This document shows, piece after piece, positions 30,944 to 50,076 of a stretch of DNA of 64,000 nt. Every line of letters begins with the position of its first letter. Positions within the stretch are counted from its first letter, which is position 1. Under the pieces are notes generated by a model. That model searched no databases. It was not told the origin of the DNA and was given only the letters and a program-made list of their open reading frames with translations. This DNA is from Fimbriimonadaceae bacterium (GTDB taxonomy: Bacteria; Armatimonadota; Fimbriimonadia; Fimbriimonadales; Fimbriimonadaceae), in NCBI GenBank assembly GCA_019454105.1, contig CP075364.1, forward strand, positions 1,305,362 to 1,369,361, written 5' to 3'. The position numbers and the translations under genes were made by a program.

Positions 30944-31924
30944 TCAGGGAGGGGTCAGACCAAAAACAATGGCATTGAACAAGCCATCGGGTGACAGTCG
31001 CCCGACGACCAAGATGGGAATCTTGGCGACGCTCTCGATCCGGGCATTGCCGAGGAACTTAGAGACCGCCTCAGCACCACCCAGGCTTGCCGTTTGTCCT
31101 TCGATCTTGGCCCGAATCTGATCTCGAATCTTCGGATCCAGATCGCCTACGTTCTTACCAATTTGATTGTCGAGACCCGGACTTGGACTGGTTCCTTCAG
31201 TTGACACGAAGAACCTTTGAATGGCGTCGCCCGCTTCTTCTCTTGCTTCCTTATGCCAGTTGTACAACTGGTCGACAACGGCCTTGAGATCTTCCATCCG
31301 CTGAAAGCGATTGTTCGCGCCTTTACCAAAGGACATGATCTCGACACCTCGAACAGGATCGAAGAAAGGTTCACTATCCTTGGGTTGACTGGAATTAGGG
31401 CCGCTAGTTCGAGCAAGCTTTACCGGCGACTCAAGTAGCCGCGACTTAACGCCTTCAGGAAACTCCGGTTCAATGTTCACTGTGATCGACCTATCGCCAT
31501 CGGTCAGTCTGACCATAGTCGAAGGCAAAATCGTGACGTTGGCGTTATCAAGCTCTTCTAGTCGCATCACCGCATTCATTGTCAGCGATACCAAGAGCCT
31601 CACGCTAGGTGATTTCGAGACTGCGACGACACCATGATCATCGGACGCTATAATTTCTCTCAGTGCTCCGTTGAGGGCCGTGTACGCCAAGTCAGCTCGA
31701 AGGCTCTTATCGAAGATATAGCCACGACGATGAAGGACGACAAGCGTCGAGCCGTGTTGTTTCACCGCCAGGCTAAGGGCTTCCTGACCACGTATAGCTT
31801 CTAGTTCCTTAACGTACTTTGGTTGGTCTCCTTGGTAAGCAAAGACGACCGCCTCCAAGTCAGCCCGGGCCGAACTAGCAACGAGGAGACTGACCGCCGT
31901 CAACAAAGGCTTAGACCAATCCAT
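30944..31924 (-). CDS. Secreted protein, unknown function
   Basis: A 326-aa protein with a signal peptide (MDWSKPLLTAVSLLVASSARA). It begins ADLEAVVFAYQGDQPKYVKELEAIRG, followed by alternating helices and strands and a KIPILVVGRLSPDGLFNAIV end. No catalytic motif or family is recognised. The base composition is visibly lower in GC than the flanking aspS gene. It follows the 151-aa gene by 4 bases, so the two form an operon. Confidence 0.65.
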   Translation of the reverse strand: MDWSKPLLTAVSLLVASSARADLEAVVFAYQGDQPKYVKELEAIRGQEALSLAVKQHGSTLVVLHRRGYIFDKSLRADLAYTALNGALREIIASDDHGVVAVSKSPSVRLLVSLTMNAVMRLEELDNANVTILPSTMVRLTDGDRSITVNIEPEFPEGVKSRLLESPVKLARTSGPNSSQPKDSEPFFDPVRGVEIMSFGKGANNRFQRMEDLKAVVDQLYNWHKEAREEAGDAIQRFFVSTEGTSPSPGLDNQIGKNVGDLDPKIRDQIRAKIEGQTASLGGAEAVSKFLGNARIESVAKIPILVVGRLSPDGLFNAIVFGLTPP

Positions 31925-31928
31925 ACGG

Positions 31929-32384
31929 TCACTCCGGAACGTCTAGCGGGAACACGCCCCAAAATGTATGTGGCAGGTTCGTAGTGCCAGATGCGATGAC
32001 GCTCGACCGTAAAGACACCGATGTCCCCTTCGAACCATGTCCATTTCTCGATTCGAGACTCGCGTATCCAGCGGATTTCACCTGTGGAACAGTGACGAGT
32101 CGCAGAGAGTGATCCTGGTAGTCCCAGGATCTCGAAGCCCACTCCTGTTGCAACGGCATGAACTTCGCCGACCAGTTGTCAGGACCGCCCGGAGAACCTA
32201 CGATGAACTGCTCGCGATCAAGAACACCCTCGGCTGCGGGAACCGTATAGGATGGCCCATAGTTGACGAGGTTAATGACGTAGTCATACCGAATTGTGCT
32301 GACCAGTGTCGTGCCAGCATGACGCCACTCGGTTGGAGGCGATGTCATCAGTAGAAGCGGAACGAGGCAAAGCTCGCTTACCAT
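31929..32384 (-). CDS. Small secreted protein, unknown function
   Basis: A 151-aa protein with a short hydrophobic N terminus (MVSELCLVPLLLMTSPP). The rest is mostly beta-like with Trp and Tyr residues (STIRYDYVINLVNYGPSY, DNWSAKFMPLQQEWASRSWD). No family recognised. Lower GC than average; probably acquired together with the downstream gene. Confidence 0.6.
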   Translation of the reverse strand: MVSELCLVPLLLMTSPPTEWRHAGTTLVSTIRYDYVINLVNYGPSYTVPAAEGVLDREQFIVGSPGGPDNWSAKFMPLQQEWASRSWDYQDHSLRLVTVPQVKSAGYASLESRNGHGSKGTSVSLRSSVIASGTTNLPHTFWGVFPLDVPE

Positions 32385-33311: not shown

Positions 33312-34523
33312 TCAGTGGGAAGCGCGGCCTTTGAACCGACCGTGTCTCGCAAAGTGAACCAGAGCGGCGGCAAGGACAACGAGGCATGCTCCAGCGAGGC
33401 ACCATGCAACGAGAAGGTCAGTCGCGCTGGCTCTTCTGGCACCCGGACTCCTCACATCCAGTGACACAGGACTTTTACCGGAGTCTTGAGCGCTCTCCAA
33501 CTCTGGGTCACGAAGAACTGACACCTGAGAATTTCCGCTTAGCTTCTCGCTATAAGAAGGACTTCCTTTCTTGACAGTCAATGCGATTGGCGCACCCGAC
33601 TCCGCATCGATGGCGAGTGACACCTCACTATCTTCGTAAAACCAACACACCCTTGCCCGGTGCTCTTCGGCCAGCCGTGCTCCCTCGGTAACACCATAAG
33701 CTGAATTGCCGCCCTTGAGAACCTCCAATCGGAGCTTGTCTAAGACTGCATCGTTTCCCGGCCAGGTCCACGCATCGGTCTGTCCCCTGGCTCCTCTCAG
33801 TCGAGCGTTTGCCAAACATTGAGAGAAGACTCCCTGCATCGCTTGGAGCGCCTCTCCCCTCTCCATAACCCGCCCGGGAGGATCGAACCTCCACTGGTCA
33901 GAGCCCGATAAGAGCATCAAACCGCCGGTGACGGCGTCAAACGTCAGAGTCGCGGAATTGAGGTGACCTTTCCATCCTTGTACTGGTTCTTCGAACCTGG
34001 TCACGACGGTAAAACCATCGAACGCGCTTTTCCATCTGCCGTCTGGAGGTGAGTTGTGTGTCACGCCCTTTCGAACCATAGATAACTTGTCCAAGCCCGC
34101 GGCCCTCAAGACGCCTTCTGCCCTTGCCCAGACCAAGCCGTCTTCCCGAAGCACCAAATCGTCATGCTTTCTAGTCCGGTCGGTCACGAGATCAGACACT
34201 TTGAAGTCTGAGTATCCTGTGACCACGCCGCTTTGGGGATTGATGCTGACTGAGACAGATCCGTTATCAAGGTCAACGTTCCATAGTCGATAAGTTGTTC
34301 CTGGTCTGTTGATCATCTCGGCGCGGCCATTCACAGAAGCTTCTCGGGCTCCGATCGCTCTCACAAAACTCACCGCGCGGTGTACGGCCGCCTCATCTGT
34401 ACGAATTTCCTGGCCCGTCGCCAGATTCACGGTAAGAACCGAGAGCGAGGAAATGACTACGAGTCGGGAGTAAAGAACTGACGATTGCAGACTCCCATTG
34501 CGGCGATGCCCAAAGATGTTCAT
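33312..34523 (-). CDS. Membrane-anchored protein with PepSY/YPEB-like repeats
   Basis: A 403-aa protein. The N terminus has a signal-like helix (LYSRLVVISSLSVLTVNLATG); a C-terminal helix at about 370-392 (LLVAWCLAGACLVVLAAALV) is followed by a basic tail, which suits anchoring with the bulk outside. Three stretches resemble PepSY/YPEB strands: VSVSINPQSGVVTGYSD, ATLTFDAVTGGLMLLSG and VSLAIDAESGAPIALT. PepSY domains inhibit or chaperone proteases. ATG 34523 overlaps the stop of the caspase-like gene (ATGA). The role as that protein's inhibitor or anchor is inference. Lower GC than average. Confidence 0.6.
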   Translation of the reverse strand: MNIFGHRRNGSLQSSVLYSRLVVISSLSVLTVNLATGQEIRTDEAAVHRAVSFVRAIGAREASVNGRAEMINRPGTTYRLWNVDLDNGSVSVSINPQSGVVTGYSDFKVSDLVTDRTRKHDDLVLREDGLVWARAEGVLRAAGLDKLSMVRKGVTHNSPPDGRWKSAFDGFTVVTRFEEPVQGWKGHLNSATLTFDAVTGGLMLLSGSDQWRFDPPGRVMERGEALQAMQGVFSQCLANARLRGARGQTDAWTWPGNDAVLDKLRLEVLKGGNSAYGVTEGARLAEEHRARVCWFYEDSEVSLAIDAESGAPIALTVKKGSPSYSEKLSGNSQVSVLRDPELESAQDSGKSPVSLDVRSPGARRASATDLLVAWCLAGACLVVLAAALVHFARHGRFKGRASH

Positions 34524-35641
34524 TGAATTGACCTGAACCATGTATTTACGCTAGTCATCGAATTGCCCGTGTAGACCCCTTTGATCCGGGTGTGGGGGTC
34601 ACCCAACAAAGTGATCTCGTCCAGGCTATCGACGAGGTTTGTCATTGAGTGGATATGGACAGGACGATTATTGCCGGGGTTGTTATGAATCAAGTGCATG
34701 ATGGCTTGCGTCGCGGTAGAGCCCGTGGCCAATCGGTGAAAAATCCACCACGATGTGTTCTCGCGCTCAACATCGAATGCACAGCCGGGCCACCCTAAGA
34801 CTGACTGGTCTTTGCAGTACGTCAAGTCGTATCCATCATAGTACGGAAACATGATCCGATCGAAGAGGGTGGTCGATCCGCTATGGCAAGAATCAAACAT
34901 CGCGAAGGCCATTTGGGGACGGCCAGGGAGGTTAAAAGGTGGAAATCTAGCTCCGTTGTGATATTCTCTGCCTGCCTCGTAGCTGTTGGCTTCAGGGCCA
35001 GCGGTTCCCATCCTGTCGCCGTACTCTAAGCCGACAGGCGGATCGGGGTCACTCGCATCCGTGTCGTGGTAGGCAGAGGTTCCATGAGTGGCCACGTACC
35101 ACACACCTGAATTCGCCATGTAGCCAAGGCAATTGACTGGAGACCAGCCTTGGTACTCATAAACCTGGTCATAACCTTTGCCCCCCATCAAAACCGTTAC
35201 GGTCCCAGCACCGCTGCCACCAGGCGTTTCCCAGAACTCACGCAGATTGAGGGCGACACACCGGTTACGAACTATGATTTGCCTCGTCGCCTCCGCACTT
35301 TCGTTAGGACTGTTGAACCCGACCACCTTGACGGTCACAAGAGAACCAGGAGCGAAATGACTGCTATCGAACATGACTCGCAGGCTACCGTTGTACTGAA
35401 CGACGTTCCCTGGAACCCAGTCCCAACTTGAGACTAAGTTGTTGTTCAAGTATAAGCGCATCGAGACGAGGATCCCAGCGTTCGTCGACACACTTCCTGA
35501 AGCAATGCTTTTTGTTCCTGAAAAGTAGAACGGGACGGACTCACCTTGGGCAGGGCACCATGCGGTGATTCCTGCAGAAGCCGAAACCACCATCATGATA
35601 GTTAGCACTGTGGCAGAGCACCTAATTAGCACAGGTACCAA
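34520..35641 (-). CDS. Secreted caspase-like (clan CD) peptidase candidate
   Basis: A 373-aa protein with a signal peptide (to about residue 24), a beta-rich domain at about 25-125 (VSMRLYLNNNLVSSWDW, VTVKVVGF: Ig-like), then an alpha/beta domain. The latter has hydrophobic-strand motifs VWYVATHGTSA (His186-Gly187) and MAFAMFDSCHSGSTT (Cys252), spaced as the His-Cys dyad of caspase-like peptidases; DSCHSG is close to the metacaspase DCCHSG. TTG 35641 is the only start giving the full signal peptide, and a G9 tract lies five bases upstream of it. It is coupled to the PepSY-like gene. CHAT or gingipain-like members of the same clan are alternatives. Confidence 0.6.
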   Translation of the reverse strand: MVPVLIRCSATVLTIMMVVSASAGITAWCPAQGESVPFYFSGTKSIASGSVSTNAGILVSMRLYLNNNLVSSWDWVPGNVVQYNGSLRVMFDSSHFAPGSLVTVKVVGFNSPNESAEATRQIIVRNRCVALNLREFWETPGGSGAGTVTVLMGGKGYDQVYEYQGWSPVNCLGYMANSGVWYVATHGTSAYHDTDASDPDPPVGLEYGDRMGTAGPEANSYEAGREYHNGARFPPFNLPGRPQMAFAMFDSCHSGSTTLFDRIMFPYYDGYDLTYCKDQSVLGWPGCAFDVERENTSWWIFHRLATGSTATQAIMHLIHNNPGNNRPVHIHSMTNLVDSLDEITLLGDPHTRIKGVYTGNSMTSVNTWFRSIQ

Positions 35642-35646
35642 TGGTA

Positions 35647-35655
35647 CCCCCCCCC
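35647..35655. repeat. C9/G9 homopolymer before the caspase-like gene
   Basis: Nine C on the plus strand, nine G on the coding strand, five bases upstream of the TTG start. It occupies the Shine-Dalgarno position, so length changes could alter translation. Confidence 0.7.
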
Positions 35656-35750
35656 TAGAGATTTAGGCCATAAGACCTACCCGATTGCTGACGCTGATCT
35701 CAAGGATCGAAGCAACGGTGAGCCCGTCCTTAGGGTACATCCTTCTGTCA

Positions 35751-48453: not shown

Positions 48454-48476
48454 GTCAGAGTGGAGTATACTCTGAC
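48454..48476. promoter_or_regulatory. Perfect inverted repeat spanning a -10-like TATACT
   Basis: GTCAGAGT and ACTCTGAC are exact 8-base inverted copies 7 bases apart. TATACT (48466-48471) lies across the spacer and right arm. It stands 48 bases before the TTG start of the HAF gene, a suitable place for an operator. No matching -35 box is seen. Confidence 0.4.
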
Positions 48477-48523
48477 GGTGCGGCATGGGACGTGGGCGTC
48501 ACGTCGCAAGCTCAGGAGACCTC

Positions 48524-50076
48524 TTGACTCGCACAAAGATTCTCACCTTGATTTTCGTTCTCGTCACCCCCCCCCGGTGACCGCGCAGTCTGACACGCTC
48601 TACGAAGTGACATACTTCCCAGAGTTCCCTCCAACTTGGAGTGGAGCCCTTCCATTCAATCTTGGCGATGATGACGTCTTAGCCACGCGCATAACTGCGG
48701 GTCCAGACAATCGCAATCGGGCCGGGTTTGCCGCGCTCTCTGACGGCAATAAGTTGGAGGCCCAGCCGCAATTCACTAACTTCTCCAAGTCCGTTGATCG
48801 TAACGTGAATGGAGTCGCCGTCGGTGGGACTGACTGGGGACCTGCCAACTTCAATGCCTGCCGCTGGACAGGCCCCCTGAACAGCAGGGTGCTTGAGTTG
48901 CTCGCCGCACAGGACGATCGGTACTCGGAGGCCACGGGCGTGGCCGATAGCGGACGGATCGTCGGATGGCTTCGGACTGGCGGGGTTGGCACTCCGGAGC
49001 ACGGATGGTACTGGGCGCCAGGGGGCCAAGAGCTGAGGTTACTTAGCAATCAAGTTCCAATTCCCCAAAGCCGAGCGCTAGCTGTCTCGCCAAACGGCTC
49101 CTACGTTGGAGACTACACGGTTTCGGGATCGGTGAACATTCCTGGATACTGGGACATGACTCTGTCCAGAACCTACGTCAGCGTATCAGGATGGGATCTG
49201 AGCCGAGACGGGTTCGTCGTCGCGATTACGGACAACCCGTTAGGGCAAGAGGCCCCGTTCCTGACCGGCTTTGCGATCGGCTCTTCGACCAGCCCGGCGC
49301 AGGCCTTCGCGCACGATTCGAACACCGGTCTGACCCGGTTCCTCCCGGCAGGGTACGGAGAGCCGGCGGACATGAACAACAACCGGGTCATCGTGGGCAA
49401 TGGTCACATGCCTTGGGTCTGGCTCGGTTCCGACCAACCTGACGGAGGGGCGGCCATCGACTTTGGGGCTTTCGTCGTGCCTGGAACGCCGGTCTCGGGC
49501 CTCGTCATGTCGGGAGTGAACGGTGGGATCCAAGCGAACCCGACGGTCAATTTCGGCGGAGCCCGTTTCATCGAGACTGAGAACAGCACATTCCTCACCG
49601 AACCGAGCACGGTTTGGTCGAGAATCGAGCCAGGAACATTGACTGTGTCCACAGGAACGCTCAACTTTGGTCAAGTGGCCGACGTCAGACGGCCTGACGC
49701 CACCAGACTGAACGTCACGCGCTCAGGTTCGATCCTCCCGACGAACTTCAAGGTGATCGCGGAGTTCACGGCCAGCGGAGTCTCTACGGTGCCGCAAGAG
49801 CTTTGGCTCCGCACTACTGCCCGGGTTAACGTAGGAGGTGGATTTGAGCTGAACCTCCAGTTCTGGGACTATCAGGCCTCCGATTGGGTCAATGGGACGG
49901 TCGCCACCGGTCCGCTCTCGACACACTACCGATCCGTCGACTCGAAGGCGATTGGGGATCTGGCTAGGTTCGTGCAGGGCGGACTGGTACGGGCCCGATT
50001 GCAGGTCGCCGAAGTCGGGCCTGTGACCGGGGTCTGGTCGGTGGACATTGAACAGGCTAACTGGATGAAGAGGTAG
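48524..50076 (+). CDS. Secreted HAF-repeat protein, out of frame across a C9 tract
   Basis: TTG 48524, with AGGAG five bases upstream, opens a proper signal peptide (MTRTKILTLIFVLVT), but with nine C at 48567-48575 this frame stops at 48578-48580. The remaining 490 codons are in another frame that continues ...VTAQ|SDTLYEVTYF as a typical cleavage site; one C more (or two fewer) would join them. The mature part has HAF-like repeats of about 50 residues (SEATGVADSGRIVGWLR, RALAVSPNGSYVGDY, PADMNNNRVIVGNG) and the C-terminal domain shared with the subtilase. In the mature frame alone a GTG at 48460 exists but gives no signal peptide. Confidence 0.7.
48567..48575 (+). repeat. C9 homopolymer in the signal-peptide region
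   Basis: Nine consecutive C within the leader of the HAF gene; its length sets whether the signal peptide and mature protein are in one frame. Confidence 0.85.

Follow-up and report, generated by a model that had tools for sequence, protein, structure and literature searches.

A predicted secreted clan CD peptidase family of Armatimonadota, its PepSY/YpeB-like partner and candidate phase-variation tracts

We describe two genes, P0001 and P0002, that lie end to end on the minus strand within a complete 2.74 Mb genome. Both fall in the 64,000-nucleotide stretch of DNA that was analysed (the window). P0001 encodes a predicted secreted, caspase-like cysteine peptidase and P0002 encodes an exported protein with PepSY/YpeB-like repeats. 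We propose, with a probability of roughly 0.55, that the pair represents a multi-copy, probably phase-variable exported protease, restrained or stabilised by a YpeB-like partner. The components are of known kinds, namely a clan CD peptidase, a PepSY guardian and tract-based switching. Their combination, the protease family and the Armatimonadota setting were absent from the family libraries and the literature searched.

The role of the widespread PepSY domains has mostly been inferred from propeptides and from YpeB/SleB. Here the pairing with a caspase-like peptidase is conserved and one-to-one, which makes it possible to test cleanly whether PepSY proteins guard unrelated enzymes. An unnamed secreted family is also added beside the gingipains and CHAT proteases. 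Furthermore, poly-G tracts hint at phase variation in the Armatimonadota, a phylum for which the literature searched held no such report.

The predicted protease and its catalytic domain

The features of P0001 are listed below.

34520..35641, minus strand: P0001, predicted secreted caspase-like (clan CD) cysteine peptidase (open reading frame; profile matches to CHAT and C25)
35573..35641, minus strand: signal-peptide-like N-terminus of P0001 (hydrophobic residues 1-26; N-termini of relatives are alike)
35264..35569, minus strand: N-terminal Ig-like beta-sandwich domain of P0001 (residues ~25-126; model and alignment)
35084..35086, minus strand: His186 of P0001, predicted catalytic histidine in the THG motif, VWYVATHG (invariant; aligned by hhalign)
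34886..34888, minus strand: Cys252 of P0001, predicted catalytic cysteine in the DSCHSG motif, FDSCHSGS (invariant; aligned by hhalign)
34598..34603, minus strand: Gly347-Asp348 of P0001, invariant GD near the C-terminus (falls on the C25 'GDP' motif in hhalign alignments)

The protein is 373 amino acids long when read from TTG 35641, and 370 amino acids long when read from an alternative, leaderless-type GTG at 35632, which may be the true start. A preliminary description of this DNA had proposed a signal peptide, an Ig-like N-terminal domain and a His186-Cys252 dyad. VWYVATHG does contain His186, FDSCHSGS does contain Cys252, and both are encoded on the minus strand. A hydrophobic, signal-like segment is present at the N-terminus. 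The following domain was modelled as a beta-sandwich resembling Ig/FN3-like folds, with strands at residues 45-123 (pLDDT 50-75 in that part). The motifs YFSGT and MFDSSHF are conserved within it in the alignment, and the domain probably serves binding. The AlphaFold2 model of the whole protein, made from an alignment of four sequences, had a pLDDT of 36, too low for a caspase fold to be recognised, and its Foldseek matches (SoxY, FN3 and Ig folds, E ~1e-3) concern the Ig-like part only.

We then have the conservation of the catalytic residues. Thirty-five relatives were aligned, with ~19-45% identity to P0001. Across the 35 intact members only H186, C252, G347, D348 and Y357 are strictly invariant. 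Since His186 and Cys252 persist in 35 relatives down to ~20% identity, they are not chance occurrences. The pattern is that expected of a putative catalytic dyad accompanied by structural residues.

The profile of the P0001-family catalytic domain was compared, using hhalign, with profiles of CHAT, C25 and C14 domains taken from Armatimonadota. The best match was to CHAT (E 3.9e-5, score 39.8), with His186 and Cys252 falling on the catalytic residues. The match to C25 was similar (E 1e-4, score 38.3), and placed the His, the Cys and the GDP motif in register. In these alignments the THG of the P0001 family falls on THG/GHG, and DSC falls on SAC/ISC. For C14 the match was weak (E 0.024) and extended over 23 columns only. 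For 60 column shuffles the maximum scores were 15.2 (CHAT) and 14.8 (C25), and reversed profiles scored 11-12; all are less than half of the real scores. The order of the residues is also that of clan CD: the histidine (H186-G187) precedes the cysteine, and the cysteine closes a hydrophobic strand (FAMFDSC252).

Family libraries did not recover these similarities. Searches of Pfam, NCBIfam and PDB sequences with P0001 alone returned nothing significant, and an NCBIfam scan of 35 protease family members gave no match. In the Pfam scan the C25 model (PF01364) matched none of the 35 members. The CHAT model (PF12770) matched one of 35, weakly (E 0.09) and below the family cut-off. Membership of the metacaspase family C14 (PF00656) was considered and rejected, there being no Pfam match to this model in P0001 or in the 35 members, and only the partial, weak profile match above. 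The window genome does have two C14 matches, both to genes other than P0001, and a search of that genome found no true C25. Since the CHAT and C25 scores stand far above those of shuffled and reversed controls, the C-terminal domain of P0001, judged by profile comparison, is a divergent clan CD domain outside every Pfam family tested. This agrees with the clan CD assignment made in the preliminary description. The remote profile matches also favour a caspase-type alpha/beta fold that would bring the dyad together. We consider it highly probable that the family has peptidase activity.

Three known groups invite comparison. Members of C25 carry the catalytic His in an HG motif, the Cys in S/A-C-x-[ST]-G, a C-terminal GDP and an Ig-like domain. 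Like P0001, the C25 gingipains are secreted and have an Ig-like domain in the same protein. Conversely, this domain is N-terminal in P0001 and C-terminal in C25, and the P0001 family has a near-obligate PepSY partner. CHAT proteins (PF12770), the best profile match, share THG, S-x-C-x-[ST]-G and a C-terminal 'fw..L..G.tv..A' helix with the P0001 family. Most familiar CHAT proteins are cytoplasmic fusions to TPR repeats, whereas P0001 is predicted to be secreted and has an Ig-like domain. Metacaspases and orthocaspases (PF00656) share the local motifs HG and D-x-C-H-S-G.

The PepSY/YpeB-like partner and the gene pair

The features of the second gene, and its junction with the first, are as follows.

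34520..34523, minus strand: ATGA overlap of the P0001 stop and P0002 start (sequence; P0001 stop TGA 34522-34520, P0002 ATG at 34523)
33312..34541, minus strand: P0002, exported three-repeat PepSY/YpeB-like protein with a C-terminal anchor (open reading frame, PepSY matches of relatives, model)
34206..34397, minus strand: PepSY-like repeat 1 of P0002 (residues ~49-112; helix and strands, pLDDT mostly 60-88)
33900..34142, minus strand: PepSY-like repeat 2 of P0002 (residues ~134-214; helix and four strands; YpeB, YpmB and YycH matches)
33576..33860, minus strand: PepSY-like repeat 3 of P0002 (residues ~228-322, SLAIDAESG; sequence motif, low model confidence)
33357..33413, minus strand: C-terminal transmembrane segment of P0002 (residues 377-395, hydropathy 2.65, then a basic tail)

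The ATGA overlap had been noted before and is present exactly, the TGA at 34522-34520 overlapping the ATG that starts at 34523. P0002 is 403 amino acids long from this ATG, and 409 amino acids long from a longer in-frame start at 34541. Its N-terminus is signal-like. Each repeat consists of a helix and strands that end in a D-x-x-[ST]-G-like motif (SINPQSG, TFDAVTG and AIDAESG). In repeat 3, the columns D312, A313, E314 and G316 are invariant across six partners. A long low-complexity linker (residues ~325-372) is followed by a C-terminal helix, modelled at residues 373-400 with a pLDDT of ~75.

The PepSY identity of P0002 is supported by its relatives and by its structure model. A Pfam scan of P0002 itself gave no PepSY match, and direct searches of NCBIfam and PDB sequences with this protein alone were no more informative. 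Among 30 partner proteins, 10 matched Pfam PepSY (PF03413; best 2.9e-6) and five matched DUF4901 of YcdB/YcdC. Searched against the PDB, the partner profile matched the PepSY protein of an M4 peptidase (9vy3, E 0.009). Residues 43-214 of the P0002 model are of fair quality, and among solved structures the model comes closest to the C-terminal domain of YpeB (5boi, Z 11.8, 145 aligned, rmsd 4.4). Lower matches were to 5coz (Z 8.1), then 4pw1 and YycH (7.2) and, lower still, YpmB. Thus, the earlier view of P0002 as a PepSY/YpeB-like protein is upheld by the family matches and the likeness to YpeB; what it lacks is a direct Pfam match for P0002. The C-terminal anchor is not general. More distant partners (L044-L047, L041 and L042) have an N-terminal signal-like segment and no C-terminal anchor.

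Using a profile of 15 members, the protease family was found in 39 of 291 Armatimonadota genomes. The nearest named relatives of the window genome in this family are the Armatimonadota MAGs CP054189 (labelled Chthonomonadaceae bacterium) and Chthonomonas sp. UBA2362. A broader contig scan with P0001 alone gave no match, and a second broader scan found two loci only, both from Armatimonadota. No family member was found in the viral contigs and plasmids scanned. In the window, the divergent neighbour at 35685 encodes an M48 peptidase, and the gene that follows P0002 encodes a PhzF-type protein. Further downstream, at window 30944-32384, are two minus-strand ORFs that had no confident family match.

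The preliminary description had named conservation of the pair in other genomes as one of two points on which it could fail. The pair is conserved, and its gene order recurs across genera. Of 37 intact protease genes, 32 are directly followed on the same strand by a partner, which in most cases overlaps the protease gene or begins within 60 nt of it; this count is partly by construction, as many of these partners went into the larger partner profile used for it. An HMM made from six close partner sequences also picked up partners in other genera, and nearly all of these adjoin the downstream end of a protease gene. Two of the remaining proteases (L087 and L089) have larger overlaps with their partner, outside the cut-off. 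At two further loci (L043:10134-13325 and L096:9101-11983) a protein of ~1000 amino acids directly upstream of the protease contains the PepSY-like partner region, which is a rearranged version of the pair. By genome, a partner is present in 34 of 39 with the protease and in 16 of 252 without (Fisher p 8e-27).

The association is asymmetric. The window genome has three intact proteases, at least two remnants and five intact partners. Decayed proteases adjoin intact partners at L035:10823-12385, where the remnant reads into the partner in one frame, and at L034:10225-10539. A PepSY partner without an adjoining protease also occurs in this genome (L037; L199:4876-6174, G000:2068963). Some orphan partners are divergent copies in genomes without a protease match. 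Hence, the protease almost never occurs without the partner, and the converse does not hold. That proteases are rarely alone, while partners do occur alone, fits a protease that needs its partner.

The proposed role of the partner and its alternatives

P0001 and P0002 are probably translated from one message. P0001 would be exported as an Ig-like domain followed by a CHAT/C25-like catalytic domain with the predicted His186-Cys252 dyad. The PepSY repeats of P0002 may bind the protease during or after export. P0002 would then hold the protease at the membrane in a folded but inactive state, until P0002 itself is displaced or degraded. Restraint or chaperoning of the protease by its partner is argued by analogy, and we place the odds of it at about even. 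The system could serve to remodel the cell's own surface, to scavenge or to antagonise other cells; each of these candidate roles would fit.

The closest analogue is YpeB of Bacillus. Like P0002, YpeB is an exported PepSY-repeat protein, and it is the YpeB C-terminal domain that the P0002 model fits. YpeB is encoded with, and probably controls, the lytic enzyme SleB; P0002 is encoded with a predicted peptidase. The two systems differ in that the P0002 anchor is C-terminal and the enzyme is a caspase-like peptidase in place of a transglycosylase. YpeB interacts with SleB and may keep it inactive; on germination YpeB is degraded (PMC13393411). In vitro SleB is inhibited by the N-terminal domain of YpeB and it is this domain, not the PepSY domains, that is most effective (PMC6660665). 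Hence, the PepSY repeats need not be inhibitory. The PepSY propeptides of M4 metallopeptidases provide a second parallel, again linking PepSY repeats to an exported peptidase. Conversely, P0002 is a separate polypeptide with several repeats, and its peptidase belongs to an unrelated class.

Other readings of the pair were weighed. The protease could be a toxin-like effector directed at neighbouring cells, with the partner as its immunity protein and decay of the protease leaving partners behind. The asymmetry described above suits such a system: proteases rarely lack a partner, partners occur alone, the window genome has five intact partners to three intact proteases, and at L034 and L035 an intact partner adjoins a decayed protease. 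Genes that are multi-copy, patchy, fast-decaying and tract-regulated suit antagonism too. However, we found no delivery domain, no match to a toxin or immunity family and no match in PADLOC; both proteins simply have signal-like N-termini. To our knowledge, PepSY proteins are not known as immunity proteins. Furthermore, the divergent orphan partners in genomes without a protease match need not be leftovers. We therefore regard this explanation as unlikely. The absence of a PADLOC match for either protein also led us to discard the idea of an anti-phage defence system.

A different relationship would make the partner a substrate or sensor, with cleavage by the protease releasing or activating this membrane-anchored PepSY protein in a signalling cascade. 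The C-terminal anchor and the low-complexity linker (~325-372) of the partner are suited to cleavage, and YycH, a regulator, is among the best structural matches beside YpeB. Divergence of the two families co-varies (Mantel r 0.70), as this model would have it, although species relatedness alone could give the same value. The distant partners that have no anchor argue that release by cleavage is not a general role, and we think this scheme rather improbable. Finally, P0001 could have a clan CD-like fold and yet be no peptidase, acting as a pseudo-enzyme or binding protein. Its similarity to peptidases is remote, Pfam finds nothing, and the four-sequence model has a pLDDT of 36. Against this, the dyad and almost nothing else is invariant across 35 sequences, which is hard to explain if there is no catalysis; the chances of a non-peptidase appear slim. 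An exported protease restrained or stabilised by its YpeB-like partner is the reading that we prefer. No caspase-PepSY or gingipain-PepSY pair is described in those parts of the literature on PepSY with caspase or gingipain that our search covered.

Candidate phase-variation tracts at the 5' ends

One feature lies just outside the P0001 open reading frame.

35647..35655, minus strand: G9 homopolymer tract, candidate phase-variation tract (14 nt before GTG 35632; same position at paralogues and homologues)

The preliminary description had made no mention of 5' tracts. Runs of this type are scarce: no more than 15 G/C runs of at least 9 occur in the 2.74 Mb window genome, yet such a run is found at the start of two of its three intact protease genes. 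For a wider comparison, a tract was defined as a G/C run of at least 8, or a dinucleotide repeat of at least 7, within -150/+170 of the ORF start. Random windows satisfy this definition in 0.4% of cases. Tracts occur at the 5' end of 12 of 46 protease genes and 2 of 305 other genes at the same loci (Fisher p 5e-10), a statistic that treats related genes as independent, the 12 genes coming from seven species and six genera. The other 34 protease genes have no tract by this definition. In seven genes, from several genera, 13-18 nt separate the end of the tract from the start codon.

The clearest arrangement is in genome G255. All three of its protease genes have the sequence TTGACA-N9-polyG-TAGNNT, with G8, G8 and G9 tracts and spacers of 17, 17 and 18, and no other TTGACA-polyG-TAGNNT promoter is found in that genome. 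Tract lengths were read from one assembly per species, such that differences in length were seen among paralogues only (the G8, G8 and G9 of G255). Elsewhere the tract is at the start of the signal peptide. At L042 a (CT)18 repeat lies between the Shine-Dalgarno sequence with its ATG and the signal peptide, which is out of frame as assembled. At L040 a poly-C tract containing two N occupies the equivalent place. The region upstream of P0001 has no recognisable -35 element. Runs of T9/T10 upstream of the G011 copies were rejected as tracts; they sit upstream of clear TTGACA promoters and resemble AT-rich upstream elements.

Phase variation by homopolymers in promoter spacers is known from porA and opc of Neisseria and fim of Bordetella. 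In these systems, as in several protease promoters, a G/C run lies within a 17-18 nt spacer between the -35 and -10 elements. The present case differs in being from Armatimonadota and in concerning an exported protease, and its switching is predicted from sequence. Tracts placed in a promoter spacer, or early in the coding sequence, are the layout of phase-variable genes, and the protease family shows it. Because in several species the promoters or signal-peptide starts carry slippage-prone G/C runs or CT repeats, slippage during replication would probably switch each copy on or off at random between cells. That phase variation is active in at least some of the species seems to us somewhat favoured.

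Chance, or a local mutation bias with no regulatory meaning, could also generate G/C tracts. The window genome does contain 15 runs of at least 9, and other secreted genes carry such runs too. Neither process readily accounts for 12 of 46 against 2 of 305 gene starts, for the recurrent placement 13-18 nt from the start in seven genes, or for the fact that the three TTGACA-polyG-TAGNNT promoters of G255 all belong to proteases. We consider that chance is a poor explanation. More tentatively, and with the balance slightly against it, the pair may typify an undescribed class of secreted clan CD proteases that are multi-copy and phase-variable, and each of which is controlled by its own YpeB/PepSY guardian. 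Such proteases would form a surface or antagonism system that Armatimonadota switch at random, and poly-G promoter spacers would be a contingency mechanism used generally for the exported proteins of the phylum.

Tracts were also seen at genes outside the protease family. In the window, a C9 run (48567-48575) lies at the signal-peptide region of ORF 48460-50076 (538 amino acids, no Pfam match). The hydrophobic stretch TKILTLIFVLVT and the remainder of the protein are in frames that differ by one, like a contingency gene in the OFF phase. At L107, L108 and L109, runs of 9-10 G/C mark the 5' ends of genes whose products are secreted or unknown, one with a PA14 domain, which suggests a wider set of tract-regulated exported proteins. 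The longest G run of the window genome, a G16, is just upstream of a gene for a small secreted protein of 118 amino acids (L111:2034; G000:1909534). Two apparently paralogous genes of the same genome (L103:1567 and L104:1923; G000:303567 and 1190423) encode small secreted proteins of the NWQLDY type, and have a G9 inside the spacer of a TTGACA-N17-TAGNNT promoter. In G239, two small secreted-protein genes (L179:3326 and L179:10360) are preceded by TTGACA-N10-G8-TAGNNT, with the start codon 13 nt past the tract.
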